This document shows, in pieces, positions 11,059 through 52,420 of a DNA stretch of 64,000 bases. The first letter of the stretch is position 1; each line of letters begins with the position of its first letter. The stretch covers positions 10,523,001 through 10,587,000 of the forward strand of contig NC_091108.1 of the NCBI RefSeq assembly GCF_024713975.1, in the 5' to 3' direction. The stretch is from Paralichthys olivaceus. Its lineage: Eukaryota > Chordata > Actinopteri > Pleuronectiformes > Paralichthyidae. Made by a program: the position numbers and the translations under genes. The notes under the pieces are model-generated. The model worked only from the letters and a program-made list of their open reading frames with translations, searched no databases and had not been told where the DNA came from.

Positions 11059-11600
11059 TTGTTATTGTTGTGGGTTTTGTATTATTTCCTGTTGTTGTTT
11101 ATGTTGTTATTGTTGTGGATTTTGTTTAGTTCCTGTTGTTTGTGTTGTTATTGTTGTGGGTTTTGTATCATTTCCTGTTGTTTGTGTTATTGTTGTGGAT
11201 TTTGTTTATTTCCTGCTGTTGTTTATGTTGTTATTGATGTGGGTTTTGTATTATTTCCTGTTGTATGTGTTATTGATGTGGGTTTTGTATTATTTCCTGT
11301 TGTTTGTATTATTGTTGTGGGTTTTGTATTATTTCCTGTTGTATGTGTTATTGTTGTGGGTTTTGTATTATTTCCTGTTGTTTGTGTTGTTATTGTTGTG
11401 GGTTTTGTATTATTTCCTGTTGTTTGTGTTGTTATTGTTGTGGGTTTTGTATTATTTCCTGTTGTTTGTGTTGTTATTGTTGTAGGTTTTGTATTATTTC
11501 CTGTTGTTTGTGTTGTCATTGTTGTGGATTTTGTATTATTTCCTGTTTGTGTTCTCATTGTTGTGGATTTTGTATTATTTCCTGTTGTTGTTTCATGTGT
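11059..11600. repeat. 13-copy minisatellite upstream of hes6
   Basis: Tandem array with a unit of about 39-45 bases (mostly 42) built on tttcctgttgtttgtgttgt followed by tattgttgtgggttttgtat. Copies begin near 11085, 11130, 11171, 11208, 11251, 11291, 11331, 11369, 11411, 11453, 11495, 11537 and 11576. Central copies are nearly identical and flanking ones diverge. Because most units are multiples of three, frames on both strands stay open. On the minus strand this gives a 14-residue Thr/Asn repeat with NNT sequons. On the plus strand it gives hydrophobic repeats. I see no splice or start context and call it non-coding. Confidence 0.92.
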
Positions 11601-12002: not shown

Positions 12003-13234
12003 ATGGCCCCCATCCGGAGCAACACACACGGTGATGACTGCGGCAGGTCCGACAGGAAGGTAAGGACTCCCGAGGACGCTTTGTAGTGAACTTCTCTGTG
12101 TGAACTAAAGTGCTCACTCCTTGTCTCGTGCCGGCAGATGAGGAAGCCTCTGGTGGAGAAGAAGAGGAGAGCGCGCATCAATGAAAGTTTGCAGGAACTC
12201 CGAGTTCTCGTCGCGGACACAGACGTAAGACAACGTGGATGTGTTTGGATCACAAGGCGGTGTCCTTGCTGGGACGTCAGCTGAGCTGGTGTGTGGTGGT
12301 TCTGTTCGGCTTGTGTTGCTTACTTTGTTTTGTGTTGGCTTCCCGGTGCAGTTGCAATCAAAGATGGAGAACGCGGAGGTGCTGGAGATGACAGTGAAAC
12401 GGGTGGAGAACATTCTGAAGAACAGGGCTCAAGGTACAAACTTTTTATAGGATCAATTAAAGTTACACTTCACTTAAACCTTAAACTTTTAAATTCAGCA
12501 TATTTCGAAGAATAATTTGGCTTAAACCTGTGACTTTTAAAATCAGCATACTTCTAATGTATGATTCCTGCACCAAGCATTATAGTTATTTAGTTTGATA
12601 AAGTAGTTCTTAACAGTAACAGAGTAATAATATTCTTATGCTACTCCAGCCACAGGTGCTCTTGTGCATCTTCAGCTCAGCCAATCAGAACAAAGACGGA
12701 AGTTTGTAACATTTCATTGAATGTTTTTAAGCTTAAATTAAAATTAGAAAATAAAAATACATCTCAGATGCATCATGGTAACTTTTGTTTGAATGGTGGA
12801 TGTTCTGTGTCTCCTCAGAAGTGGATGCAGTGAACAGGGAGGCCTGCGAGCGGTTTTCAGCGGGCTACATCCAGTGTATGCACGACGTGCACGCCTTCAT
12901 GTCCAGCTGCCCTGGGATTGACCCAGCAGAGGCTGCAGAGCTGCTGAACCACCTCCTGGAGAGCATGCCCCTGAACGACGAAGACTACCTCCGGGGGATG
13001 CTGCCCGACGGCGGCCTGGCGGACTGCCCCCCCGGCAGCAACAGCACTTGGTCCCTGTCCGAGAGCATGTACGCGGCCCTGGTGTCTCCGGCCCCGTCCA
13101 CCACCTCCACCGACGACCTCTGCTCCGACCTGGATGACACGGATTCCGAGCAAAGCCACATCTCTTCGTCAGAGGAGGCCGACGGCCAGGATGTGTCTTT
13201 CACTTACTCCAAGTCAATGTGGAGACCCTGGTAG
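12003..13234 (+). CDS. hes6: Hes6/Her13-type bHLH-Orange transcriptional regulator
   Basis: Four exons: 12003-12059, 12138-12224, 12352-12433 and 12819-13234. All are GT-AG, giving 642 nt and 213 aa. The bHLH begins in exon 2: KPLVEKKRRARINESLQELR is the basic region and helix 1. A short loop follows, then helix 2 (MENAEVLEMTVKRVENIL) in exon 3. The Orange domain is in exon 4 (ERFSAGYIQCMHDVHAFMSS, then AELLNHLLESMPL). The protein ends WRPW, the Groucho/TLE-binding tetrapeptide. The short loop and the exact helix sequences match HES6 rather than HES1/5/7. HES6 acts in the nucleus downstream of proneural and Notch signalling; fish hes6/her13 works with Her1/Her7 in the segmentation clock. It is convergent with per2, as HES6-PER2 linkage in human 2q37 would predict. 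Confidence 0.95.
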
Positions 13235-17249: not shown

Positions 17250-20200
17250 TCACTCTGAAAATCTTGAGCAGTTCATTGTCTGGCTGATGTGCGTCTGAGA
17301 GCTGGAGACAAGCGACGGGCAGTGGCAGGAAGCAACATCCGTGTTTAACAGCTTTTCTCTGGGCCTCTGCTGGCTGCCGACCTCCCCCGTCTCCGTGTCA
17401 CTGATGTCCAGGTCTGGCTGATACTCCGACATCGCTGCTGCTGCTGCTGCTGATGATGATGATGATACTGCAGCTGCCTCTGAGGTGCCGTCACAGCAGG
17501 AGCACACCTGGAAAACACACACACAGGTTTGCATGAGTAATTAAAGCAAGAGGGTGTCTCACATGTTCATTTGAGAAAAATAAGCTGTTTTCAGACATGA
17601 ACTTTGGAGAATGACCAGAAAATTGCGTCTGGACATTTTGTCTTTCACGTATAAAGAAGACAGCAGGAGATTGTATGACTCAGGACAACAGGAACATTTC
17701 TGGAACATTCAGGTGAAGGGTGGCGTCTTGGTAGAGCAGCAGGAGTCGGTACATAATTTATGAATTACTTTGCTGTTATCACCAAAACAAATTGTCGAAT
17801 CTTGTCTTTCCGACATTCTTAAAAAATCTAAATTATCCGAAAAACTGCTGAATGTTAAATGAAAATTTAATAGAAATATCAACCAATAAATATATTCATC
17901 ACATCTATAATTCTCATTCCAATAATGGACTATAAATATTCTACCTTGATGTCTATGGCCTTGGGTAGACTTCCATTCTTTATCCAGGGGTGGACCTCCA
18001 TCAGCTCCTTCTTCTGCTCCTCTGAGAAGCACGGCTGGTTCTTGTGCATCAGCCGCAGCTTCTCTCTGTCCTCTCTGAGCACTTGCTGGATGTTACTGCA
18101 CATACAAGCAAACCCACAAACAGCCATTCAGCACACCAGCCAACAGTTGTATCTGACAGCACTTTATGTGGGTCAGGGTGAACTCTGAACACTAGAGGAT
18201 CACTTCTTCTGACAACAACAAAGAAAAGGTTGGTTTCAAGCTATTTGTCTCCGCCACTTCCTGCAACACTTGAGAAAAATCAGATTCTGCTGCTAATCAT
18301 CTGCTGAGTCCCATTCACTGTCTGGCTTCTCTTATCTATCAATTGTGCTGATGTAAGGGTGCCATCTGGTGGTTATAACTATCACTACATCCATAGAGGT
18401 CCAATGTGAGAAGCTGATTCTTGTTCATCTTTTTGGGCCTTTGTTTTGCCTGTCATGCACAAAGGCACAGAGACAGTAAACCCTGAGGGAAATACAAACA
18501 GTTGAAAAAAAAAACAAGCTATAATAGTATGGAGGAGTTATGAAATTGGAGTTAAGACATATTTCTGTATTTAATTCTATTACCTGAAGACAGTAAAATG
18601 CAAACAGAGAAACTTAGAAAAAGTTCCAAAGAATTAATTATTAACAATACCACCATCTACTGAATTTCAGCTCTCAGCTCCCAGTGATAAAACTTTGAGA
18701 TGTGAGCCAAGCCAGGGTGCAGATATGTTATGGTGTAATAACATAAGAGACCTCTAACTTGATTGTATAGCTGTGTGCAGCGCTATTTGTTTGTGCACTC
18801 GTGCAGTCGTCCGTAACGCTTTTCTCGTCCACGCAGACAGTGGGACCTCATCGTTTCAGCTGCAGTTTTGCTCCAAGTAGCATACAATGCAGTTCTCTCG
18901 CTCATGCAAGAGCCACTAGCCCGTGCCATGAGCAGCCACAGCGGGTCCAACAGTACATACCTAATAAAGTGTTCGCTCTGCTCCATGTCTACGGGCCTTG
19001 CGTCGCTGCCGCTCAGATGACCTTTGACCTTCTGGCTGTTCTGGGACGAGTCCACGCTGCCAAAGTATTTACTGCTGTTGTTGCTTCCTGAAAACCAACA
19101 GGGGAGTGTCACACGATTTTATTTATCACAAAAACACAGTAACTTTGTCACACCTGAGGAGTCGAGATTGACTTGACTTTACACATAACAGAGCAACACA
19201 ACAGCAAAAAACTCAAATTACAACAAAGCTGATGTGACTTGTTGTAACTTTGTTCTGCTGATTTCCCCTGAGGTTGTGTTCTTTTTATCTAATGCTGTCC
19301 ATGAGATGTAGAAAGTTAAGTTCGTACCTGTTCCACTGGCGGAGGTCCCACTAGCCGACACTCCACTGCCTGATGTCCTGCTCTTAGATGTACCGCTGTT
19401 GGACGTCCCGCTGGCCGAAGTTCCACAACCGTTGGACCCTGAGCCCATGGACCCTGAGGTGGCCGAACCTGTGCCTGAATAAGAGTCCTCTTGGAGCATA
19501 ATGTCCAACATGTCACTGGATAAGGAGTTGGCATCGCTGGTGTTCCCGTCGCCATGTGAGCTTGCCTGAAAAAAACCACAAACAGGAAAACAATAGCATT
19601 AAAGAGCAGCCTGACTTCAGAGATGGACTGCAGCGCTCTTTGTGATACAGGCAGGCCCAGTGTCATGAGTTGTGTTGGGTCTTGCCTCTGCAAATGAAGA
19701 CTCCATTGTCAGTAAATATCTTTAAGGAGCATGGAAATGAGTCTGCCTCACCGATAACCAGGTGCACCATAGCACACCATTAAAGGTTGAGCTCAGTTAG
19801 CAACATGACAGTGATCTCGATCCATCTCCTGCTGATTTAAAGGAGAATGTAAAATATATTTATGTTCAAGTGAAAAGATCAATTTGTAACAGTGATAGCT
19901 GCAAACATACTTTGTGTGTTCCTGGTCATGTCTTAGCACAAAACAACACAGAGAAAACAACAGCATGTCCCCACTGATGCTAAAAATGGTGTTATTAATG
20001 TGGTTCAAGCCTCGGATGCCCTGCATGCAAAATCAAAGAGTGGATGAACAATATGTGCATAAAATCATACAGTACTAATGTGATAAACAAAGATGTTCTA
20101 TTACCGATACCAGCAAAGGAAATGCCTCTGATACAGCTGAAAATGTCGAGTCGGGCATCGGTGAGTACTGATCCGATACCACTTCTTTAAAGTGTGTTAG

Positions 20201-23200
20201 TTTCACCCAGATAAAACTGCAATTTTCTTTTCCTGGAGAAAACATCTTGATGAAGAAGGGATTTCCGGTAGTGTGTCAGTTAGAGCTACTTAAAATATCA
20301 GTAATTTGGCAATATTTCATGAAACGTAGCAACATGAACTGTATGCAGGACTTCAGGTTTAAGGTATTTAAAGGAAGTAATTGTTGTGGTTTCCCCAAGT
20401 TTGTTTTCTTTTTCAGTTTTTACTGTCAAACTAGATAATTAAAGGAGTTCTATGGCATTTATGTATGTATTTCTTTTTTGAAGGGTTTAACCTGAGCCAG
20501 ACCGTACAACAATAACAGCAGCCATCACTTCTGTACAGGGTTAGTAGCATACTACTGTTATAACATATTATATATCTTGTTATATTTTCAAATGTACTGG
20601 TACTGGATCAGTACACGAGATCAGAAGATACACAAAGTCCAGGTTTCAGAATCAGCATTGTGAAGGTAAAAATGGTATCGGAACATCTCTAGCTATGATG
20701 TTTTGTTTGTTTTAACTTGTTAGACATTTTTTAGCAATTCTGTGAATTCTCGTTTTCTTACGTTTCTCAGTCTCATGCGTTATAATGCTACGTAATATAT
20801 TTTCTGGAACAGACAAGGGTAGTGCAAATCATAAGTCATGAAGAGGAATACTAAGAGAAACTTTTACAGACATATTTGACATATGGATTCGGGGAGAAAT
20901 GGGATTTGTGTATAGGTTTTCTGATGAGTCTCCTACCTCATTGCTGTAAGCCCTCAGCCTAGAGAACACTTTATCCCAAGACAAACGCTCACAGGCACAG
21001 CACGTGCACTCGCAAAACAACGGTCCAGGTGGACCAAGGAGACTGAGAGACGGCTAAAGGGATAATAACATCAAGTGTTAATACCCTTGGCCACATTTCA
21101 TCGGAGTAGTCGAGATGGATTTGACTTTACATATGGCAGAGCAATACAACATTAAAATACTGGCACTTTAACTGAGGAATCACTGTGAGGATGGCATTAC
21201 ATCACAGAGGGCTAAGAGATAAAAGATTATTGGGGGACCATGCCACAGCCTCCCTATGGGGGTCCACACAAGCCTCAATGAAAAAGTTCAGTGAGACATT
21301 TACATTTTATCCTGACAGTTTAAGGAGAATATCAGTAACACGCTTCGGAAGACATGGGGAGGAAAGCAGAGAGAAAGAAGACAGCAACAGAAAGAGGGTT
21401 ATTTCCTTGTTTACTGGCTTCGGCTCCCTCACCTTGGCTTGAGTGCCACTTGCTCCCTTGTCCCTTTCAGCGGGGTTCCCTTGTCCTCCAGGTGGCAGCA
21501 CTGTGTTGTCCAGGAGGTCAACAGACAGCTCCAGCTCCAGCAGATTGAGGGGTGAGCTGCAGCCAGACTGGAACAGAGGTGGGGATGCCTGTCCTCCTCC
21601 CAATCCAGACTGGGGCGTCGAGGGGCGAGACTGGGCCTCCACCAGGCCCTTTGGGATTTCCGAGGATAGAGGGAGGTGGTACGATTGGGTAAGGTAACCT
21701 GCCTGAGGAGCAAAAAGGTTCTGGGGGCTGAAGGGATTCTGGACACCAAAGGAGGGTTGAACCATGAAGGTGCCCTGGCCTGGAAAGGCAGCCTGACAAA
21801 AAGGCTGTGTTTGGGTGGTGAAGCCTCCAGTCTCTGCATGGTACACTGGCTGTGGTGGTTGAGGCCCGGGGGGCATTGCAGAGTACATGTAGTTCGGCAG
21901 CATCAAAGCCACAATGGGGGTGACCATGGGGGCAGCGAAGGGAACAGGATGGATGGATGGCTGGCAGGGAGGGGCTTGGGTAGCCTGGTTGTCCCCAAAA
22001 TTTGCTAGAGGGGGATCTGTGCTAGTCACTATGGAAGCAGGTGTGGGGTAACCCTGGAGTGGGTAGCCTGGCATCATGGCAGGGTAGGCCATGGAATACG
22101 GGGACTGCGAGGTGTCAGAGGAGGACCAAGACGTGGGGTTAAGACCATGGATTAGACGAGGTGGCCGCAGATGCTGTTGACTGTGATGGGACACCGTACT
22201 GTCCGAGGACACAACCTGCCTCGCTCGCTTCGACTTGGTCTTCTTATTTCGTGTTCCTCGGCGTGTGACGGGCTCTGCAGCCAGTCCAGGCTGTTTGAAC
22301 GGTCGAGCAGCGGGCACAGCTGGAGGGTAGACAAGAACAAAAGCTGTTGAGTGATTAGTGATTTTGAGATTTTCATTTTTCGTTTGTTCCAAATCATCAA
22401 CTACTTCTGCCTCTTGCCCCATATGACTTCTCTTAAGTGACGTTGCCACACTCCCAGTTCTTACAAATGACATTGCTGAGCCCAAAATATTAATGCAGAT
22501 TAAAGTTATAACCATAAATTGTGATGTATGATCGTGATGATATGTCAGTGTGGTGTTCAGTGGTACCATCGCTGGAGGTCTGCTCTCGCTGGCGTTCCAG
22601 GTACTCAGAGCAGTTTGCTTTCAGCGTTGTGAGTCTACGGAGCTCTTTGAAGTGATGAAGGAAGGCCTGCTCCTCCTTCTGCGTGTGGGCCGCCAAAACC
22701 TGCTTGGTCAGCCCCAGTTTCTTGTAGGACTCCCTCTCCTGACTGGGAGGTGAAACAGCACGAGCAGGAGTCCTAGAGTTCTGGCAGGATTCTGCCATTT
22801 CCCCCGCTCCTGGTACATCCTCTATGATCTCTGCGAGGATGACAGAGGGGAAACTACTTTAAACACACAGTCCAGTAATGACAGGTGAAACGTTTGCAGT
22901 GAAAATGATAAAAAGCATTGAACAGGCACGGTAGTGGCCTGTAAAATAATGGCTCATTGTAACTGTAGGTGTAGTATTTACTACATCATCAGGTACTCAT
23001 TGGTTAGTGCCTTCAGAAAGTACTTCTGTTTCATATTTGCCCCAAATTAGAGAGAGATTTCCTCGTTTTCCATTTATCGTTGTCATTAGAGTGGCCATTG
23101 AGCAATCTCTACAAACTCAACCTTTAAATCTGGATCCTTTTTTCTTCTGATCTGATATAATAAATATGCAGTAACAGATGACAGTATTTTGAAGATAAAA

Positions 23201-26200: not shown

Positions 26201-27691
26201 CCTCAGCGTGGACGGTGTCCTGAACCTTCATCCGATATGGCGTCATGCGGAATGGATAGTACTGTATGTTGCCCTCACGCTCTTTACCACCGCTGTAATT
26301 TAAAATGTAGAAGAAGAGCTAAGTTAAACAGGGATGGTCTATTCATAAATACTCTCAATTAAGGTTTATGGATTTCAATTTCCCAAACACATGGGGGCGC
26401 TGTGTGGTTATTTTCCATCCATCAACCCAACCATCTCTGTGTACAGTCAATGAGTAAATTAATGTTGTGTGGTTGTGCATGTGTGTTTTAAATGGGCGTG
26501 TGCAGAGCGATCTTTAGGCCAAATGGTTAGAGTGAAAGCCAAGTGACTACAACGTTCGATGTTCTACTGTGGCCGTGGACCATGGTTCCCCCCCTCTCTC
26601 TCTTCCCCCATGTTTCCTGTTTGCCTCTGTGTACGTGTGTACGTGTGTGTGTGTGTGTGTGTATCTATATGTATGTGGCAATTGCCTGGAAAAAGCATTC
26701 AATTACGCTTTACCCGCTTATGATGTCACAAAATAATTGAAAGGCATGTGAAGAACGGAAGCATGAATTAATAACACAGGTCTGAGCAGCAGATGGACCA
26801 ACGCCCACTCACCTGATACGACAGAAGAAGGATTTCTCCTGCATGCAGTCAGGTGGGGATGACTCTGAAAGGGGTAAAGAAAAATGTTTTAATTCAGAGG
26901 TAACATTATCCAGACCGTATGCTGGTGGGGGTCTCGGCTCCTGCAGGCAATCAAGCTTTAATTAGCTCTATAAAAACTAAAACACAATTTAGGAGAACAG
27001 CTCTGCACTCAATGCAAAGAATTTACTCCAAATTGAGTTCTTTATTCATTTCCAGGCATACAGGGTTCAAAGCGAAACAGAAAAAGTGCAGCTCTGGGTC
27101 TGATGTTTATCAAGTTGTGTTGTTTTTGTACCTGCTCCGGTGCACATGCTCCATGACGGCAGGCGGTACGGCGTTGTGAAGCTGTAAAACACGCTAACAT
27201 CCTGCGGTGTCAGGAACTCCACAAATTTGGTGTTTTTGAACACGTCTCTTTTGCAGTTGAGGATGGAGGCAGCCTGATCAGAAATGTAGACGATGCGTCC
27301 TGTGATCAGAGACACTGCGACTGCAAAAATGTCCTGCGGAACACAAAATACAAATTTGTGGAATGAATAAAAAAAATGCTTGAATGCAGTAACATAACAT
27401 TTTTTGGGTTCAAACCTTATTCAAGCAAAGTTGACAAAATCATGAATTGTTAGTGTTGTCAAAGCATTTATTGATTTAAGCATCTATAAAGAACATAGAT
27501 ATCAGTATTGTGGTGAAAATAATTACCATAGACTGTTTATACAGATGGATGACAGTATAGATTGTACATCCCACCTCCTTCAAGTAAGTGGAGGGAACCA
27601 AGCAAAAAAGTCGAAGTACACGTCAAATAGTAGTTCATCAACAATAACACTTATGTCGGTTCAAGTGTAAACTTTTCTGCTAATTTTAATT

Positions 27692-30700: not shown

Positions 30701-31935
30701 AAAAAGTTAGCGGGTGTTAGTGGATATAACTCAGAAAGATTTATTGATATTCTATTATATATAGCATCAACACGTATATGGGTGTGAATGAACTCAAAGT
30801 TTCCTTGAACCTTGAGGCTACATTGCCGTTGCAGGAGTGGTTTATAAAAGACAAAGTTTAAATTAGAAGTTTACTGCAGAGAGGGAGTGGTGGGAGACAG
30901 TGAAGAGGGTGAGGTAGGAGAGGCAGGGTAGGGAATGAGAGAAAAACGCAGATCTGCTCGTTCCACCCAGTAATAAACAGAGACAAATACCACGTTGCCG
31001 TGGCAATACCAAGGAGATGAAAAGTGTGACTCAACCAATCTGGTATTAAGAGGAATCCAGCAAACCAGATGACATCAATCCAATCCTCCGGAAACTAGTT
31101 TTTATTAATTTTATATCCACTCTGCACTCCCACTGCATTGTTTTTGTCAAGCTGTATCCATGTCCACACAATTCTTAGTGCGTCATGGAAATATTTTGTC
31201 CTAGTGATTAAAGTTAATTCCTACTTCTGTAGTAGAGTATGCTGTAAAGAGAAAACTTAGAGAGCTAGAGCAAATGAGGGGCTACACACGTGGAAAACCC
31301 TTTTAGAATGAGAATTCCTGTTGCTGGCCATCACTGATGCCTTGGCTCACTGAGACATTAGTCAACTCAGACAGACACGTTTGGAGATTTTATGAATATG
31401 TGAAGATTAACCATGAGGGCAAAAGGAAGAAAAAATGAAGCACTCCGCTCCACGGCCCAATTATCATTAAATCAAACATCACTGACCTTTTGTTGCTTTC
31501 AGAAGATTCCAGCAGTGCAGAGTCTTTGCTGTTTCCATTTGAACTGCCCATTGACCCGTGGCCGTGGCTGTCGTTGCCTTGACTCTCGTTGCCGTGACTC
31601 TCATTGCTGTGCGATTCGGTCCCGCTCCCACTTGACCCGCTGCTCTTCATCTCCACGTCTTCCACAGGAAGCAAGCGAGAGCGGGTGTTCTTGCGATGGG
31701 TGTGCAGCGAGGCGGGAGGGTCCTGGCCGCTGCTGTCGCTGCCCTCTGAGGGGAGGCCGAGGTCGGGCCCACCTTGGTTGTAACCTCCAATCCTGTGCAG
31801 CTGTGCCATCGAGCTGCACCCGGACGCCCCTCTCGGCATGGAGCTGCAGGACGTGGATGCTCGGCACAGTGAGGCGACATCCTGGTCCTCCAGAATTGGG
31901 AAGTGGTAGGGCTTGGAATCTGAATCTTCAGACAT
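17250..31935 (-). CDS. per2: Period circadian regulator 2 (22 coding exons)
   Basis: Exons (minus strand): 31935-31487, 28806-28714, 28332-28181, 27889-27768, 27333-27132, 26864-26813, 26292-26150, 25984-25906, 25793-25687, 25594-25441, 25352-25238, 24982-24842, 24424-24334, 24224-24047, 23711-23587, 23427-23221, 22830-22567, 22319-21433, 19565-19328, 19087-18886, 18095-17945 and 17507-17250. They total 4410 nt and 1469 aa, all in phase. The ATG is the first in frame ([13 protein letters not shown]); a TAA lies just upstream. PER2 is the light- and clock-regulated partner of CRY that represses CLOCK-BMAL1. Exon 3 holds the helical region ([20 protein letters not shown]). PAS-A spans exons 4-7 and PAS-B/PAC exons 8-11. 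IHRLLLQ and the degron-like SSGHGSLNS follow. The CK1/FASP cluster is in exon 16 ([18 protein letters not shown]). The Pro-rich region is exon 18, and the CRY-binding C terminus is exons 20-21 ([19 protein letters not shown]). Human PER2 is 1255 aa; the excess is Ser/Gly-rich sequence. The linkage to hes6 favours per2 over per1 or per3. Confidence 0.96.
17437..17467. repeat. Trinucleotide repeat coding Ser/Ala tract in per2 last exon
   Basis: Plus-strand (CTG)n followed by (ATG)n. On the coding strand this is five TCA-type Ser codons and six GCA-type Ala codons ([11 protein letters not shown]), followed by [12 protein letters not shown]. It is an in-frame repeat inside the last coding exon and is prone to length change. 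Confidence 0.85.
20091..20688. mobile_element. hAT-type MITE in per2 intron 18
   Basis: The left end reads agatgttctattaccgatac and the right end, read in reverse, agatgttccgatacc. The interior has gatccgataccac and tactggtactggatcagtac. The ends and the scattered 'ccgatac' words are characteristic of a hAT-like non-autonomous family common in fish. It is about 600 bp and has no transposase. It sits between per2 exons 18 and 19, on neither splice site. No clean target-site duplication is visible. Confidence 0.6.
26632..26663. repeat. (GT)n microsatellite in per2 intron
   Basis: About 30 bases of GT with two ACGT interruptions, inside the intron between per2 exons 6 and 7. Confidence 0.9.
27695..27729. 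repeat. (TA)n microsatellite in per2 intron 4
   Basis: Uninterrupted TA repeat of about 33 bases, ending some 40 bases downstream of the per2 exon 4 donor in transcript sense. Confidence 0.95.
28428..28645. mobile_element. DNA-transposon relic in per2 intron 2
   Basis: On the minus strand the piece begins attggaggtcgaccgattt and contains gccgatacagatatt, then atatcggcataagcac, ending near aggctctaatta. 'Ggtcgaccgat' followed by 'atcggc' words is typical of a short hAT-like fish family. It is about 215 bp, degraded, with no coding capacity. Confidence 0.5.
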
Positions 31936-32053
31936 CAGGAAATGTGCTGCCCTGGGCTTGTTCCAGGTCAATTAGTTGGATGAAGAGAGAACAACAATCA
32001 CCCCATTTTCACAAGGGTCTTGCTGCAAGGAATAGGGGAGGAAGTGGATAGAT
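31936..32053 (-). other. 5' UTR part of the per2 ATG exon
   Basis: On the minus strand a good acceptor (ctctctctcaacag) ends at 32054, and 118 bases of non-coding exon precede the ATG at 31935. A TAA just upstream of the ATG closes the frame. This implies at least one upstream non-coding exon near the promoter at 37.9 kb, with a first intron of about 5.7 kb. Confidence 0.55.
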
Positions 32054-35400: not shown

Positions 35401-37200
35401 CTTAGATCTCATTACACAGACCTGCAGCTTATAACATGTTAGTTTAACAATCATGTGTTCAAGAGGATTGTGATGTTTAAAACAGCTCCGTTTCTGGAGG
35501 AGACTCATCACACAAACCAAAGACCTTCACAGAATGCATTCATGCTTTAAGCTGCTACCTCATCATCATCATCTCATGTATTAAACTCTGCACTGTGCTC
35601 TGATCAGATTGTGTCATCAGAAGTTATCTTATACAACCACGTGCAGCGGTGCCTGCAGTTTTATAACAGTGGGGAGGCATTCATTCACTTATGTAAGTTT
35701 ACAACGAGTGAGTCCAGAACGTGCAACACTGCACTGATTTATTCATGGGTGGTGCATGACCCCAAAACAGCAGTCTACAGGGCCAGGGCCACTTTAAGAT
35801 ATTTATGACGTCAAAGCTATGTTAACCTTTAACTGCGCAAACTGCAGCAATGGCTTTTAATCTCTGACTGCAGCAGGATATTAAATCTCAACACCACAAG
35901 TAAGCTCTGATACACATTTCATCTGGATTCATTGTGTAACAGGCCATTGTTTGGGAGAAGATAGGACAGCTTGGTTTAATGCAGCTGATCAAAGTGCAGC
36001 AGAATCGTCATCAATAAGAAATGAGACTACAGTTTTTATAGGATAAATTACGCAGCCCTGCATGATATTAGACTAAACCAAGTCTCTGAATGGATTCTTA
36101 GGTAACTACTCAGACGTAGCTGTTAGTATCTAACCCCTTACAGCAGCAGCAGTAAACTTTCATGTGAAGACATGACTGAACGTTGGTTTACAGCTTGTTT
36201 CTGCTTGACCTACATCTATCTTCAGTGACATCTTAGAAAGCTGTGATGGATCTGTTGCACACTACACTCTATGCACTGTACTAAACCCTCCAACACCACC
36301 TAAGGCTTTATCAAATTTTCCTCGTGGCTCAGTAAAAAATGTTTAAAGGCGTCCTCTGTGACATGATCTGCTCTGAAGTAGAAAAAAGTGGGCAGGGAAA
36401 TATGTACCAGAACTCTCAAACAGGTCTACATGACTTCTCCCTCAACAGCTTTACATGTGTCAGTCCAATTTCCTCCTCCCTCTTCTGAGCACAAAGCGAA
36501 AGCTGAACATGTTTCTCAACATGTCATAAACAGCACAGTGCTGCACTATAATTCACACAGAGAAACACTGTTGGGTTCTATGTTTCAAATGCTGACATCC
36601 TGAATGGTTTTTTTTCTCCATGAGCAGAGAATACAAACAACTGATAAACAGCAAATCTGAGGTTTATCAATTAGGTATTATACCTCCTCCCTGTGCTTGA
36701 ACAATTTACAGCCCATTCTTATCAAAAGCCCATCAATAAAAAAAAACAAGTATTCCAATGCAGACTAGGATATCAGAAGTAAAAGTGTAATTATCAAAAT
36801 AAAGTTATTTCATTTGAGTTTAAACTCCAGCAATGCTTACAGTGAGTGAAGGTTGTGATCTTCAACTCCTCCAAACTTGAGAAACAGCAAAAACATTTTA
36901 TAAATCTGAGGTAAAACATCAAAACCAATTACGTGTTATCCTATGAACTGTGTTGCATAAATATAATATCATTGTATATTGGACTTTTGCTGTATTACTA
37001 CTGGTGAAAATCAAACAGCATGAATTATTGATATTGATAAAAGGGCTCGTGTCATGAGAACAGCCTCAGATATTCAACATTACAAACATAATCCGATTTT
37101 TTTTTACGTGCACTTGATTCTCTTGCCAATTCTCCTGCATTTAAATAGCGATGGAAATGAATTTCATAACCAGACCTGCAAGGAAATACTCGCAACTCAC
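32491..37200 (-). other. Long 5' intron of per2
   Basis: About 4.7 kb with no coding exon that I can support on either strand. Short frames here lack splice context and known motifs. It is interpreted as the intron between the per2 non-coding first exon and the ATG exon. Confidence 0.5.
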
Positions 37201-37256
37201 TTGAAGCCACAAACATCAATATTGTGAATGGACGCTTCCATGAGGCAGCGGGTCCT

Positions 37257-37496
37257 TTATGTAAGTGGTGGTCTTCTTCCGTGGCCGAGACAATAACGCA
37301 AACTGGCCTGAAGCAGCATGACAGTCTCATATCTGTGTCTGCTGCTGCTGCTGCACAGGGAGGTTTATGTAAGGAGTCATTTTCATGTGACACACACTGA
37401 CACCACACGTCCACACACCACACAGAAGCAGCGTTCGCGGTCCACTCCTCAGCACCGTCACCTCAACTACGTGACGCCTTCACTGCCCTTACATAA
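37257..37496. promoter_or_regulatory. Three D-box octamers in the per2 5' region
   Basis: Perfect D-boxes: TTATGTAA at 37257-37264, TTATGTAA at 37365-37372 and TTACATAA (its reverse complement) at 37489-37496. The last lies next to a GC box (gtgggcggg, 37499-37507) and a CACGTA/TGACG element (37469-37476). D-boxes bind PAR-bZIP factors (TEF, DBP, HLF) and E4BP4, and mediate light induction in fish. They lie 0.4-0.85 kb downstream, in gene sense, of the E/D-box core at 38.1 kb. Confidence 0.55.
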
Positions 37497-37849
37497 AAGT
37501 GGGCGGGAGTGTGCTGTAGTCTACTGACCGAGTCTGACCCACAAACTGACACAGTTATGCAACTTTCACGCTTCGTCCATTCAAACCGACTCTTCGCACA
37601 TTCTCACTGCGGCTCGTTCACAGTGTTGTCATCTCCATTAAAGACGTTTTTAAAAAAACAACAACAACGACGCTGAACGCCAGAGCTCGAGCGAACAAAT
37701 TAAAAACCCACCAACCTCTCAGGAACAGCTGCCGTGTGGCTCCCGGTGCGTCCGTGGGATAAACCCGTGTTCAAATGGAGGTTGTGTGTTGTCGGTTCCG
37801 GCTCACGGATGCCTCTGGTTCTGAGTCAGTCAGACACGCCGCGTTCTGC

Positions 37850-38115
37850 CGCTGAAGTTTCCGCTCAAGCCGGGACTGAGATCTGAATCTCCAGCGGAGC
37901 TAGTGACCTCATTCCGTGCTCCGCTCCGAGCTCCGCCTGCCTCCGTACGGCCTATTGGTCCAGAAAGCTGCTCGTCACTACGTCACGGCGCTCTGGACCA
38001 ATCGGCGCCTCGCGCCTCCACGGGCGCGGTCGAGGCAGTCGCCGGTCCGCGCTGCGATTGGTCAGCGGTGCAGCCACGCCCTTTACATAAGGATGTCACC
38101 GCTTTCACGTGGTAA
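37850..38115 (-). promoter_or_regulatory. per2 promoter with E-box/D-box light-responsive module
   Basis: A GC-rich block with the E-box CACGTG at 38106-38111 and the D-box TTACATAA at 38083-38090, 15 bases apart. Three CCAAT boxes follow (38057-38061, 37998-38002, 37954-37958), with a CRE-like TACGTCA at 37979-37985. In gene sense the order is E-box, D-box, CCAAT boxes, then the likely start at about 37.85-37.92 kb. The zebrafish per2 light-responsive module is a closely spaced E-box and D-box near the start site, conserved across vertebrates. There is no TATA box. A possible first-exon donor (ccgtgagcc) lies near 37807. Confidence 0.75.
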
Positions 38116-38639
38116 CCCACGGCCACCGCCGGCGCGAGGGAGGCGAGAGCAAATCACCGGGAAGCAGCTGCCGGTGAACGGAGCGATGCCGATGGTTGGC
38201 TCCGCGCGGCTCCACGCTGTTATCTAAACGGTTATACAAGTGTGGTCGTGGCCGCTGTGGCTCAACTGATTGGTGCGCAGTCATTCAGGCTGCAGAGAAG
38301 TCTCTCCTCGACTCTCGTAAAGAAATGTGATATGACATAAGGGGCTTTATATCCTCACTGTTATTTCATATGCGGAGAATTCAGCCTTATATAAAAATGA
38401 AGTGGTGTTAGTGCTGATTCTGCAGCTGCACTGCGTCGTATGACGTTCAGAACAACAACAACGCTGAGTGTGTCCCGATGCACAGATGTGTTGTTTATGT
38501 CTATACAGCCTATAAATATTACCTATAAATACATCACATTGATTGTACATAGCCTATGTATACATATATTTTTTAACTTTCAGATATCAAAATGTCATAT
38601 ATATGGATGGATAATGTCTATACGTCATACATTTATATA

Positions 38640-45223: not shown

Positions 45224-48200
45224 CTAGAGATCGGTAGTGACCACAGGAGTGACTCCATGAATGAGCAATGTTGGGCCGAGGTCTCGACTCAACAGTTCCA
45301 CCTGGTGCAGGTAGGCACGGTAACGGTTTATGTCTGCAGGTGGGCGAGGCAAATACAGGAAACGCACAGCAGGTTTAGGGGCTCCGTGTCGGAGAATTAG
45401 ATTGTTGACGGCACAGATGTATTCATCCGTGAGCTGAGCAGCATTATTGGGGAACATTTCATTGCCATCTTCCTTTTGAGCTCTTTCTTCTTGCTCCATC
45501 TTCTCCTCACTCTGCGCAGACTCTGCCAGATTCCCTTTCTCCCGCTCTCCTTGTCTCTGCCAGTGAAGCGCTACCACCTCGTCCCAAGCCACCATCTGCA
45601 CGTGAGCTGAGATTCTTAGCTTCTTAAGCATCACCCTGAGCTTCGTCTCCTCCTCTACCTGCAGACTGCAACCAGCCTCCACGCACAGGAAGAGGCGGAG
45701 TCTTGCCTGGTTCCAGGCACGAGTCTCTTGCAGAACGCAGGCCAGCTGCAGGAGGAACAGTGAGCAGATGTCAACGTAGCCATGGCTGTCTGGTTGAAGC
45801 AGATTCAGAGGCCACACATCGACGAAGGGCCCCATCATGCTTTGGTGGCCTGCAATCTTTCTTCCAGAACCCAAGACCTCCTCCCGGTTGAACTGATCAA
45901 AGTAACGAGCCAGTGTCACATTCTTCCCCATTTTAACAGCGTCGGCAATCACCGACACGTATTCCTCTTCCTGAAAATCTTTGGTTTGCTCCACGCCCCG
46001 CACACTGGGGAAGAAAGGGGACCGCTGCTCCCTGGGGTCTTTGGTTAGACAGACAGTATCCAAACCGTAGCCTGTAGACAGAATAATTTTACCTTGGAGG
46101 TTGTCTTGTGGGGTGCAGTCATCATAGAAACCCAGGATAATGGTGTTTGGCCGCATTCCACCTTGACACAGACATAAGTATCAAATTTGCATCTTTGATA
46201 ATAACTGTAAGGCTTCTTCGTGTGATACATTATCAAAATTCTATCGAAATCAACATTGTACAGCAATAAGGTAAACCTGCCTACCAAATCCTGTAATGAA
46301 AAGCAGGTTCTGAACTCCGTGTCGGACAGAGTCAGCTAGGGTGAGGTTGACAAATGCCTTGATGTTTAGATGATCTACTAGAGACAGCCAGGATTCATAA
46401 CAGCTTTGCAATGGATCAGAGGGCAGCCCGTCTGCAGAGAGAAAAGACAATCATCTCATTCCCTCAAGGGCAACATGTGTTTGTTGTGACAAGCAGGTGT
46501 GTGTGCGTGTGTGTGTGTGTGTGTGTGTGGCCCCGCTCAGACCTTGTATTAAAATAAAACAAAAACAAACAAATCAACATATGGACACAGAAGCATAAAA
46601 ATATGTTTGAATGATTGTAAAACTGTGGCGGGTTAGAAGACATTAGATGAGTAGGCCGTCCTTCATATTTGGATGCATTTGTGGTCACACAGAAAAGAGT
46701 GTGACCACATGTCCCGTACCACCTGTGAATGTGGTTTGAGTGTTCAGATCACAGGATGCATTTGGGTGCATTCAGACCTGTTTTACCAATTTGTGATCAG
46801 ATTACTCAGGACAGATGTTAATACCAGGTCTGAATTATTTCAAATTGTGCGTGTGTGTGACACTTTAACCAGACTATGAAAACTAAAAAATAAGTCATTG
46901 AAATTGATACCTCAGTCCTACATTGTTCATATTTAGAGTTACTACCACCTTTAAAAAAAAAAAAAAAAAAAAAGTCAATAGTAAAACCTACAGAACTACT
47001 ACAATTCTAAAAATATAAATTTTGGAATCAAATGATGTATATTTGCTTCTTACCTAGTAAACCCAGCTTCACATGTCCCAATACATAGAGGCCACTCTTC
47101 TTCAAGTCATTAATGAAAGTAATGAGACCCGTACAGCTGCGAGGGTTCGCCACCATCAGCAGGACCTGGGGCCTCCAGAACTTCACGTGGTCTTTACGTA
47201 CATCCAACATCAACAGGTACTTACGCACCTGAGCCAATCAAAGATGAGAAAGAGAGAAGTGCTGTTGAAGTAGATAATGGAAACTCTAATTAATATTGTT
47301 GATGCAGGACAGATGGTTGGTTTGTGACTTTGGACCTGGTGGAAGATGAGAGCCTGGCTGATGTATCCCCAGTTGCTGATGGGGCCAAAGTAGTGGATCA
47401 GCATCAAGAGCAGCAGCATAAAGGCAATGCTGGCAAAGGCATAAATGGCACTGATCAGAAACATCATGACCAAGCAGCCAAGGATGCCCAGTGTGCAGGT
47501 GTGCCAGGTAAAACAGCGGAATGAGGGTCTAAATCAAAAGAAAAGAGAATGACTGAGTAGGACAATAACCTCTGATCATGTTTTTGAAAATGAAATCCAG
47601 AACCGGAAGCTTAGTTCACAACAATATCCTACACTTTACCTGAAGTTTGGTGCAGAAGCCCATTCAAGAGCCAAACAGGCCAGGTTCACAGCAGCATAGA
47701 CCAACAGGAAGAAGATGGTTACAATACCAGCTATGGTGTTCAATTTACCTGCAAACAGCACCACCTAGTGGCAGAAATAAAGAACATAATTTGCCTTACA
47801 CTAAATTCAAAGCATCAGTAAAGAAATAGACAGATATGCCACAATGCCAACCTAAATGTTGTTGTTGTGAATTCAGCTTTATTTCATAAATGTGAAAAAT
47901 GTCTCATCAATAGTTTTGAATAACTTGTTTGTTTTAGTATTTTTTTCCTATTTTGTATATTTACTCTGGATATTTTTGATCTGATTGTATTTGATATAAT
48001 ACCAGTTTTATAAAATACACGATTACTAAAATGATTGATAGCTGCAGCTCTTCACTTACAAATGTTCAGCCAATACAAAGTAGATCAGAGGACCAAAATC
48101 TGGTATCTACTTAGATGGTCCACTTTCTAAAGCTTAAAGCTCTGAATATATAATAGAATTTTTAAGAGCTTGTATAAAACCCTGAATGAAATAATTCTGA

Positions 48201-51200
48201 CCTGGCATCACTAATATTTCTTAATGCATAATGGTACAAATTAATTATTACATTATATTTAAATGGTGACTAATTAATTTCACAAGCCAAACTTTTACAA
48301 CTGGGTCATCAATCAAACAAATGATAAGAGCTACATAAAACAGGAAGTGGTTCCAGATGAGGGCAAGGGAAGTGACATCAGTGTAATAATCTCACCTGTA
48401 CCAGCAACCAGGAGACAAGCACCGAGGCCCAGGGGTTCCCACTCCGAGATGTTTTCCTGGCCAGAGCCAGAACACCACCTGTACAGATATACAACATTAA
48501 CAAAATCACAAAAGTCACCCGGTCTGTTATTGCTCATCATCAAATAAACGGCTGAGTCATCCTGTCTTAAGCAAAACCCACAATGAGGGAATTTTTCTTC
48601 TGAGAAATCAACACTGCGAGCCATCTGCTGTCAAACGATACTTTCTAAGCTAACATACAGTAGAAAAATGAGACATGATGAAATTAATAACAAGGGTCAG
48701 TTTGTCACATTTTAGATGGAAGCCTCTTCAACAGATGGCTGATGATTAAAAAGAGTGACTCAGCTTCGTAGAAGACCAGCTGGAGTTGGATTCGCTGTCA
48801 TGTACACTGGATCAACCATTTAGTCCTGATCATAACCTGAACAAGCAAGATTAAAATGTAATGCCTCTCACTACAGAAAGGGGCGGAATAATTTCACTTG
48901 TCAAAACTACACCTGGCATTCTACTGTTTGAGGAATTTTGACTTCCAAACAAATCCAAGCGCAAAGGTTTTTCCTGCATGCACAGAAACAGCGCGAGGAC
49001 AAGAGCCGAAGCTGGAACACAAAGCTTGAGCACAAGGAGAGCAAACCTAAGCACAAGTAGGGGCCATTTGAGTTTGAGCGTAGGGTTTTGTGTGAAGCAT
49101 TTCAAAATCTGAATGTGAAATCTGCAAGTCCTGCTTTCAATCTTAAAGACTGCACTCTTAAATAAAGATTAGAAAAACAACCATTAGACAGCTGGCATTC
49201 CGAATATTGTGCAGCTAGACACATGAGCAAGAGTCTCACCAAACAGGTTGTCTTTGGACAATGCATAAAGGATCCTGGAAGCTCCAATCAGATTACTCAT
49301 GGCAGCAGATATAGTGGAGGAGTAAACACCGACTGTCACCATGGGCGGCCATACATTGATGTCTCCCAGGAAACTGTAGTCTTTTTGGAGCAGGCGACTA
49401 CGAATGGCAGAAAAAAATAATAAAAGATTCTGAAGATTATCGTGTGTGTGTGTTAATAACAAATTTATTTTAAATAAATATTGATTGTGATCACATTCAA
49501 GGTACTTGAACCATTGAGCATAATCTCAAACATCAACTACAATCATCCATCTCTTAAAAAAGTATATTGCAAATATTTAGTTAACACGAAGGTAAATTTA
49601 ATTACAGATCAGTCTCTGATGCACATTATCAGACACTATTGCACCAATAGAAAGCTTTGAGTTACATTTGATCTTATTTGTGCTCATTCAATTCAAGTAT
49701 CTTTGACAATGTGTGACTTACCGGTCACAGGACCAAGCAGCCAGAAGACTCAGCACATTGTATGTGATGAAAGTTATAAGGACAGCTGCAAGGGTTCCTC
49801 TTGGGATAGAATAGCTGGGGTTTTTCAAGTCACCTGCAAATCACATGACAGGAACGCATCTTTAGTTTTGGCCTCTATACTACCACCATCCCAGCACTAG
49901 CACTCAGTTCACTTTGGTGGAAAAGGACTATAGGAGGGTAGATCAGCTGATTGGAAGAGGAGGTACAGATACCAACACAGGCTTTGCTGAATTAAAGAAA
50001 AGTTGCAGTCTATTGCAGATATTAACACTCTTACCCGACATGTTGGAGCCTGCCATTATTCCAGTGCAACCATTGAACATGACAGCAAACACTGTGGTAA
50101 AACTCATCATGGCACCGGTGGTGTAGTCCACTGTATAATTGGCTGGAGGGAGTGACAGGAGACTTGATCATTTATACATGTCAGAGTTCAGCTGTGCAAA
50201 TAGGAAGCTACGGCACATTAGATAACAGATGAATGTTGTGAACCAACTAACCCGGGCTGATATTGCATATTTTTTATAAATGTCCAACATTGTTGTAAAA
50301 TATGCAGCCATTACTTTTGAAACAATAACAGCAACATATTCAACACTTACGCAAGAGGTTACTCTGCAAGGTGTGGAGTTGGAATCCAGTAAAATTGGCT
50401 ATTGTCAGGCTGGTGCTGTTAACAGAGGTATCAGGCAAAATCACTCCAACAGGCCCAACGATGAAGAAACTGATGAAAATGGACACAAGGACTGTTGTGA
50501 CTATGATGAAAATTATAAAGGCAGCCTTGGCATAGATGTGGGCTCCCACCTGTGATGACAAACACAATGCATTGAGGTATTAGTGGCAAATATGTAAATA
50601 TACTTATGACAAAAATGTATCTGCATTTACAAAGATTGAGTATAATGAAAATAATGACAGCTCACCAAGCAGACAAGGAAACACAAAAAGAGCAGGCCAG
50701 TGCCATAAAGCACAGACCACAAGTATCCTGAAGGCAGCACCTGATGTGGCCCTGCAGAAGCTGCAGCACCCTCTGAGGGAGGACAAGAAACCAGGGTTAT
50801 CTAATACATCAATATACTTACATGCCTGACTGTCTCACTACGTCTGATGGACCTCACCTTCTGGGATGCCAAAGACCGACATGATAGCCTCAACCAGACC
50901 CAAAACATAGAGAGCACTGCCACACACGTTGGCAAAGAAAAACATGATCCCGATGCTGCCACCAAACTCTGGACCCAGGGCTCGGCTTATCATGTCTGGG
51001 GAGCCAAGTTTAGGAGTTTCCCCAGAATCCAGATTCATAAATGTGGAAAAAAAGACTGGACGCCACATCTCACTTAATAAATGGACGAAGATCAACCCCA
51101 AGCCAGATTCACAGATATACACACAAGTGAGGCTTTTAAGATTCAGGCAAAGTCTCAACAAAGGATACAGTAGGCACCTCCAGCATCTAAAGCCCCATTG

Positions 51201-52243
51201 GTGGAGATGGCACACACAGAGAGCACAGTCATGGTGATAATGAAGTAGGCCACCAGGAACATGGCAATAGACTGATAGAGCCCTGCTTGTCCCACAACAA
51301 ATCCTGTAAGCAGAGGGAGGAAATCTTACATTTATAATGCGATTTATGCATTTAGTACATGTTTTTATAATTTGTAATGAAGCATGTAGCTTTACCATTG
51401 TTTAGAAAAGAGTCTGGATTTATTTTTAACTCTAATTGATGATTTAATAAATGTATAACTTCAGTCATTTCGCGAAGAAATAGTTAAAGTATTTGCTTAC
51501 AACTTTTAGAAATCACATTTGTATCTTATCCAATCAGCTGCAACCATTAGTTGAATGACTAATCATAACCTCCGCTCTAAGAAAGCTAATTTTTTACAAA
51601 AACTACAGAAGATATTTGATATTTGATTCACTTCTCAGATATGAATCATGGATCTAGAAAACAAATCATGCATTCATAGAGGATTGATATTTATGAGTGT
51701 GTGCAATTTAGCGTAGATCCAATTAAAAATCTGGATCTCGTGAATTTAAATGTGATTTAAACAGAACATCTTCGGGTTGTCAATGTGAGCCGGGATTTTA
51801 AGAGTTAACAGATTAAATGATGAACTTATACAGGAAACAACATGCGCATTAAGCTTTAGATGCAGCTCTAAATTCACTGGCTCACCTTTGGCACTACATG
51901 AATTGAGTTAATAGCAAACTCTTGTATCTGCTTTGTTTACCTGAGGTAAATTAAGCGAAAGGTTTTTTTTTTAAACTGGACTTAGATTTTTTTTATTCCC
52001 GTTAAAATGTTTTGAAGTAGTCGCCTCCTCGTTCTCACCTATTCGCAGAAACACGACGACGCTGAACATGGACAGCAGAGTCGGTGTGACCACTCCGAAC
52101 AGCACACCGAGCTTTCGGGCGGGCTTCTCCCCGGACCCTCTGCCGTCCCTGCCCACCTTGGCTCTGCCGTGTTTGGAGACGTCTGTCGGCTCATGGCCAC
52201 TGGCGGTGAGTCGGTAATGTAGCAGGGGAGCCTTCTCTGACAT
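45224..52243 (-). CDS. slc12a9: Solute carrier family 12 member 9 (14 exons)
   Basis: Exons (minus strand): 52243-52039, 51303-51169, 50995-50858, 50772-50666, 50549-50351, 50142-50035, 49833-49722, 49397-49240, 48478-48396, 47764-47640, 47528-47336, 47228-47054, 46431-46285 and 46161-45224. They total 2823 nt and 940 aa, all in phase; human is about 914 aa. SLC12A9 (CIP1) is a cation-chloride-cotransporter-family membrane protein. Seen motifs are [20 protein letters not shown] then [13 protein letters not shown] (TM1), [20 protein letters not shown], the core [32 protein letters not shown], and the C-terminal [19 protein letters not shown] and [18 protein letters not shown]. About 12 TM segments lie in residues 45-520, followed by a cytosolic domain. 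Exon 2 is taken to the GTATCC donor because only this restores AYY. An acidic Glu-rich insert lies near residue 850. A CCAAT-like ATTGG and CRE-like sites lie upstream (52380-52420). Confidence 0.97.
46497..46529. repeat. (GT)n microsatellite in slc12a9 intron 12
   Basis: About 33 bases of GT, with one GC interruption, in the intron between exons 12 and 13. A pure A run of about 22 bases follows at 46951-46973 in the same intron. Confidence 0.9.
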
Positions 52244-52420
52244 GGCGGCTTTAACGGTGACGCTTCCAGCTAAAACTCTTTCAGCTAGTGGCTACTGTCT
52301 GGGAGCTACGGTGCTCAAGCTAGCGTTAGCTTCCCGAGCTACCGCCATTCACCTCCGTCCGACTCACCTGTACAGCTGATGACGTTTAATGAGCTGCAAA
52401 ATGACGCCACTTCCTGCAAT
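52244..52420 (-). promoter_or_regulatory. slc12a9 promoter region
   Basis: Immediately upstream of the ATG on the minus strand. It has a TATA-less, moderately GC-rich stretch. An inverted CCAAT (ATTGG) and an ETS-like cttcctg lie near 52410-52425. Two TGACG half-CRE words lie at 52379-52410. Inferred from composition and motifs. Confidence 0.4.

Follow-up and report, generated by a model that had tools for sequence, protein, structure and literature searches.

A putative homotypic D-box cluster that may extend the light-responsive module of per2 downstream in Paralichthys olivaceus

The 64-kb stretch of Paralichthys olivaceus DNA analysed here (the window) contains four exact matches to the D-box octamer TTATGTAA/TTACATAA at a Period gene, at 37257 (+), 37365 (+), 37489 (-) and 38083 (-), i.e. 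precisely where the original prediction had placed four perfect octamers. The box at 38083 is well supported, from its sequence context, as the D-box of the known per2 light-responsive module (LRM). In the reading that we favour, with a probability of roughly 0.6, all four octamers would be sites for PAR-bZIP factors and E4BP4, and together they would form a homotypic cluster that extends the LRM in the downstream direction.

Results

The Period gene lies on the minus strand and is best read as per2. Its bHLH and PAS-A frames match Period models of Pfam, the PAS-A model being named Per3-like. In comparisons with solved structures PAS-A scored 102 bits for PER2, as against 90 for PER1 and 61 for PER3, and a second PAS piece scored 62, 44 and 36, respectively; for one PAS-B piece PER2 came third of three (PER1 91, PER3 89, PER2 87). 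The identity as per2, which had been assumed from the outset, is favoured by the two PAS exons, and the promoter and LRM match decides for it. The start codon is predicted in exon 2 (Table 1), therefore the gene runs downward from about 38 kb. A 15-bp tandem repeat (3.7 copies, 31557-31611) is found within the coding frame of the same exon.

As for the surroundings of the gene, the closest identified neighbour 5' of per2 is an SLC12-type cation-chloride cotransporter gene, represented by pieces at 45224-52291 (minus strand), which also account for all the matches to NCBIfam, a prokaryote library (4 out of 10 pieces matched). On the 3' side there is a piece of a Hairy/her-type gene (12782-13234, plus strand) with a Hairy_orange domain and a frame ending in WRPW, and a tandem array with a 42-bp unit (12.9 copies) occupies positions 11059-11589. 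A search of the window with Rfam gave zero matches at the gathering threshold, which speaks against an RNA element.

The promoter was compared with that of zebrafish per2, the query being the primers printed in PMC2759001, joined end to end. The alignment score was 82 vs 38 for the next best block (31 two-kb blocks scanned on both strands, covering all but the final 2 kb). A CAYGTG E-box is found beside the decamer CTTATGTAAA, and the order E-box, 14 bp, CTTATGTAAA, 20 bp, CCAAT box is shared by the two fish, embedded in a wider proximal promoter homology. Pattern scans for the LRM in two collections intended to be free of fish, one of genomic and one of viral contigs, gave 0 hits, as would be anticipated. 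The light induction of zebrafish per2 is reported to need both the E-box and the D-box (PMC2759001), and by homology the D-box at 38083, together with its E-box, would confer light inducibility on per2 here as well.

The start site of per2 is predicted near 37937 from the zebrafish decamer (-154 to -145) and equal spacing, an estimate that is extrapolated beyond the end of the alignment (near -110) and is at best accurate to within some tens of bases. Just upstream of it there is an inverted 15-nt repeat (37950-37964/37992-38006, 93% complementary) that contains two opposed CCAAT boxes. The original prediction had described the whole cluster as upstream of per2; this holds for the 38083 box, but the remaining three lie downstream of the predicted start. 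They have in common the decamer TTTATGTAAG, whose three occurrences in the 64 kb all fall inside the same 242 bp. A local duplication was considered as the origin of the downstream boxes and rejected, as the repeat search gave no flank longer than 11 bp that they have in common; the 37489 and 38083 boxes have a 16-nt stretch in common at 81%. By homology, intron 1 or an extended first exon would contain the downstream boxes, or else they would adjoin an alternative first exon. Exon 1 of zebrafish per2 is given as 164 bp long (PMC2759001), and donor scoring gave no well-scoring donor at the equivalent exon end in the flounder.

Table 1. Elements of the per2 region; positions refer to the window, and offsets are relative to the predicted start site.
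Feature	Position	Strand	Basis or remark
Zebrafish cry1a D-box core TTATACAA	38232..38239	+	upstream of LRM; PMC3516543
D-box variant TTATGTCA	38333..38340	-	upstream of LRM; PMC6687812
Zebrafish per2 proximal promoter homology, 145 bases	38048..38192	-	zebrafish about -254 to -110
LRM E-box CACGTG	38106..38111		14 bp from D-box decamer, spacing as in zebrafish
LRM D-box (CTTATGTAAA at 38082-38091)	38083..38090	-	exact match and zebrafish alignment
CCAAT box	38057..38061	-	20 bp downstream of D-box decamer, as in zebrafish
D-box variant TTATGCAA	37555..37562	+	top-ranked in mouse DBP/E4BP4 ChIP-Seq; variant ranking of PMC6687812
Downstream D-box 1, decamer TTTATGTAAG	37489..37496	-	about +440
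Downstream D-box 2, decamer TTTATGTAAG	37365..37372	+	about +570; E-box-like CATGTG at 37384
Downstream D-box 3, decamer TTTATGTAAG	37257..37264	+	about +675
Fifth perfect octamer (CTTATGTAAG)	35689..35696	+	deeper in predicted per2 intron 1, GC 0.47
per2 exon 2	31487..32053	-	by-eye prediction: acceptor before 32053, ATG 31935, donor GT 31486
Open frame with per2 PAS-A exon	27067..27420	-	Pfam, structure comparison

The octamer is present in 11 copies in the window, both orientations taken together. The earlier tally was six, i.e. the four boxes and two others near 1772 and 52612; copies at 1592, 16435, 35689, 54035 and 63689 had been overlooked. The accompanying expectation of about two per window also has to be revised, since dinucleotide-preserving shuffles gave a mean of 3.62. 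Outside the cluster there are seven octamers, four of them in DNA with a GC content of 0.19-0.33 and the other three in DNA of 0.41-0.47. AT-richness was rejected as the cause of the cluster, because the four boxes sit at GC 0.48-0.68 (the three downstream ones at 0.48-0.54).

The 834-base stretch has a GC content of 0.554 (55%), and the number of copies expected in it, according to a Markov-1 model fitted to the same bases, is therefore 0.0037. A clustering scan, in which the model was fitted to each neighbourhood and clusters near tandem arrays were dropped, ranked TTATGTAA first out of 22,946 observed octamer classes (Poisson p 1.5e-8, with 0.0245 copies expected under the smoothed local model). 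At least three copies within 834 bp were reached by 206 of these classes, and of the 280 classes made of the same letters TTATGTAA alone attains four. When eleven sites are placed at random, a span as tight as the observed one arises with P=0.0025. In 20,000 simulated 1,200-bp regions with the local dinucleotides of this stretch, 236 contained one TTATGTAA and none more than one, as opposed to the four observed.

The same tendency holds for a broader definition of the D-box. The seven octamer variants listed in PMC6687812 occur 36 times in the window, and seven of these occurrences fall within 1,100 bp here; the densest span clear of the cluster, starting from about 34.6 kb, contains four, and 0 of 20,000 simulations exceeded three vs the seven observed. 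The sites are thus in excess of local composition, as one would ask of a homotypic D-box cluster. Further single variants are found at 35629, 35932, 36953 and 39292.

The first rank of TTATGTAA is not isolated, since the runner-up octamer CCGATACC, with three copies at 20.1-20.7 kb, follows close behind (p 2.2e-8). The copies of CCGATACC lie at 20104-20681, i.e. within about 580 bp, and the octamer is absent from the rest of the window. One has to consider, then, that the LRM D-box alone might be functional and the three downstream octamers a chance run, which we regard as rather unlikely. The alternatives weighed here and below overlap with the favoured reading, so that their odds do not sum to one. 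If every octamer and position is searched without guidance (about 2 million comparisons), the significance is of the order of 0.03-0.1 by rough arithmetic, a family-wise probability that is not negligible, CCGATACC clusters nearly as improbably, and the zebrafish minimal promoter is reported to function without the corresponding DNA (PMC2759001). On the other side, not one of the simulated regions attained two copies, and the common decamer TTTATGTAAG, in three copies, is restricted to a single stretch. For a motif named beforehand, at a gene whose use of D-boxes is established, the clustering is far stronger evidence; the extra boxes are perfect D-boxes, and their origin by chance is unlikely.

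No canonical CACGTG E-box is found beside the three downstream boxes, the one at 38106 being the sole occurrence in 36500-38600, and repeated E/D modules are for this reason unsupported. A CATGTG, which fits CAYGTG, is positioned 11 bp from the 37365 box; the window contains 55 copies of this hexamer.

Discussion

It is useful to compare the flounder arrangement with known D-box systems. Promoters with several D-boxes, D-boxes just past the start and a D-box in the first intron of Per2 have each been reported previously, so each part is already known; the arrangement as a whole looks new. In mouse ChIP-Seq the octamer TTATGTAA comes second among functional D-boxes, and the same method places a DBP site at +2.7 kb in intron 1 of mouse Per2 (PMC6687812). 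In fish cells light is reported to work via D-boxes, with TEF activating per2 (PMC2759001, PMC3516543), and reactive oxygen species (ROS) likewise work via D-boxes (PMC12561580). Zebrafish ddb2 depends on a pair of D-boxes that closely follow its predicted start site (PMC7891740), and hebp2 has three putative D-boxes and one E-box; the hebp2 constructs with mutated sites, single-site ones included, all gave a weaker light response (PMC12561580).

The zebrafish genes ddb2, hebp2, soul5 and abcb6a are thus similar to the flounder locus in as much as they carry two or three D-boxes near the start and are induced by light and ROS (PMC7891740, PMC12561580). They are, however, other genes, whereas here the cluster is added to the LRM of a core clock gene. 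Mouse Per2 is alike in that a D-box or a DBP site lies past the start, separate from the LRM (PMC2759001, PMC6687812), but for the mouse a single D-box is described, and a ChIP site at +2.7 kb, and the flounder has three identical decamers at about +440 to +680. The zebrafish LRM, as described by Vatine 2009 (PMC2759001), is without a further cluster of three perfect D-boxes such as the flounder has. In the titles, abstract openings and text passages of open-licence papers that were examined, we found no D-box cluster downstream of a fish per2 start.

What the three downstream boxes do we infer from these precedents: because multi-D-box promoters, start-proximal D-boxes and D-boxes in Per2 intron 1 are reported elsewhere, the most likely role is extra PAR-bZIP/E4BP4 occupancy that would raise or shape the light induction. 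The octamers are predicted to bind the PAR-bZIP factors TEF, HLF and DBP as well as their competitor E4BP4/NFIL3. While the D-box and E-box of the LRM would drive the induction itself, the three downstream boxes and the TTATGCAA at 37555 would act as a homotypic cluster about 440-680 bp past the predicted start, offering more occupancy for light-induced TEF and hence a greater amplitude or steepness of induction. E4BP4, which in mammals competes for binding and thereby represses (PMC6687812), would compete at the same sites and shut the induction down.

The original prediction of an extended light-response enhancer survives in part. It is supported by the known LRM and by perfect extra D-boxes that are unlikely to be due to chance, but three of the boxes are not upstream and have no CACGTG partner. 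The need for such an enhancer is weakened by the report that a zebrafish construct with 431 bp of upstream sequence and 164 bp of 5' UTR is induced 22-fold by light in the pineal gland (PMC2759001); far-downstream DNA is therefore dispensable in zebrafish. It is conceivable, and we offer it tentatively, that the three TTTATGTAAG boxes and the TTATGCAA box constitute, past the start, an additional light-response enhancer that works without an E-box, or an additional promoter. The light input would then be split between a clock-gated upstream E/D module and a D-only module gated by light and ROS.

The downstream boxes might also serve mainly for repression, with E4BP4 (NFIL3) acting there to damp per2 expression or to bring it to an end. 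In chicken and mouse per2, E4BP4 is reported to suppress through a D-box outside the LRM, the mouse one being in the first intron (PMC2759001), and in a mouse Per2 reporter the mutation of the E4BP4 "B-site", presumably this first-intron D-box, raised expression 1.9-fold (eightfold for the E2 site; PMC8670960). However, the octamer binds activators and repressor alike, so that the sequence cannot discriminate between them, and the D-box role reported in fish is light input (PMC12561580), hence we consider a mainly repressive function unlikely.

Still less probable, in our estimate, is that per2 has another promoter to which the downstream cluster belongs, with an alternative first exon that terminates at a donor near 37200. 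The top-scoring minus-strand 5' splice site in 38000-37100 is indeed CAA/GTGAGT at 37200, which ranks in the top 0.7% of all minus-strand GTs and scores 5.1 vs 4.2 for the exon 2 donor; in addition, CpG-rich DNA extends to about 37400 and a GC box, GGGCGG, adjoins the 37489 box. Nevertheless, the same donor would fit the end of one long exon 1 equally well, and a second LRM-like CACGTG is lacking. A role of the octamers as 5' splice sites or antisense donors (TTAT/GTAAGG), instead of factor sites, is very improbable: GTAAG is donor-like, the three boxes score 3.8, 2.5 and 2.5, and the GT within the 37489 box, which is on the per2 strand, ties for second-best donor in 38000-37100, but two of the three boxes are on the strand opposite to per2, position -1 is T instead of G in all three, and the full TTATGTAA octamer is kept although a donor needs less.

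The favoured reading, i.e. a D-box cluster that extends the LRM downstream, is of interest as per2 is a main path for light resetting of fish clocks. If the cluster is real, constructs of the zebrafish type, which include no more than 164 bp of exon 1, would leave out some of the light input here, and the number of D-boxes would be a simple evolutionary handle on the strength of the light response of the clock across habitats.
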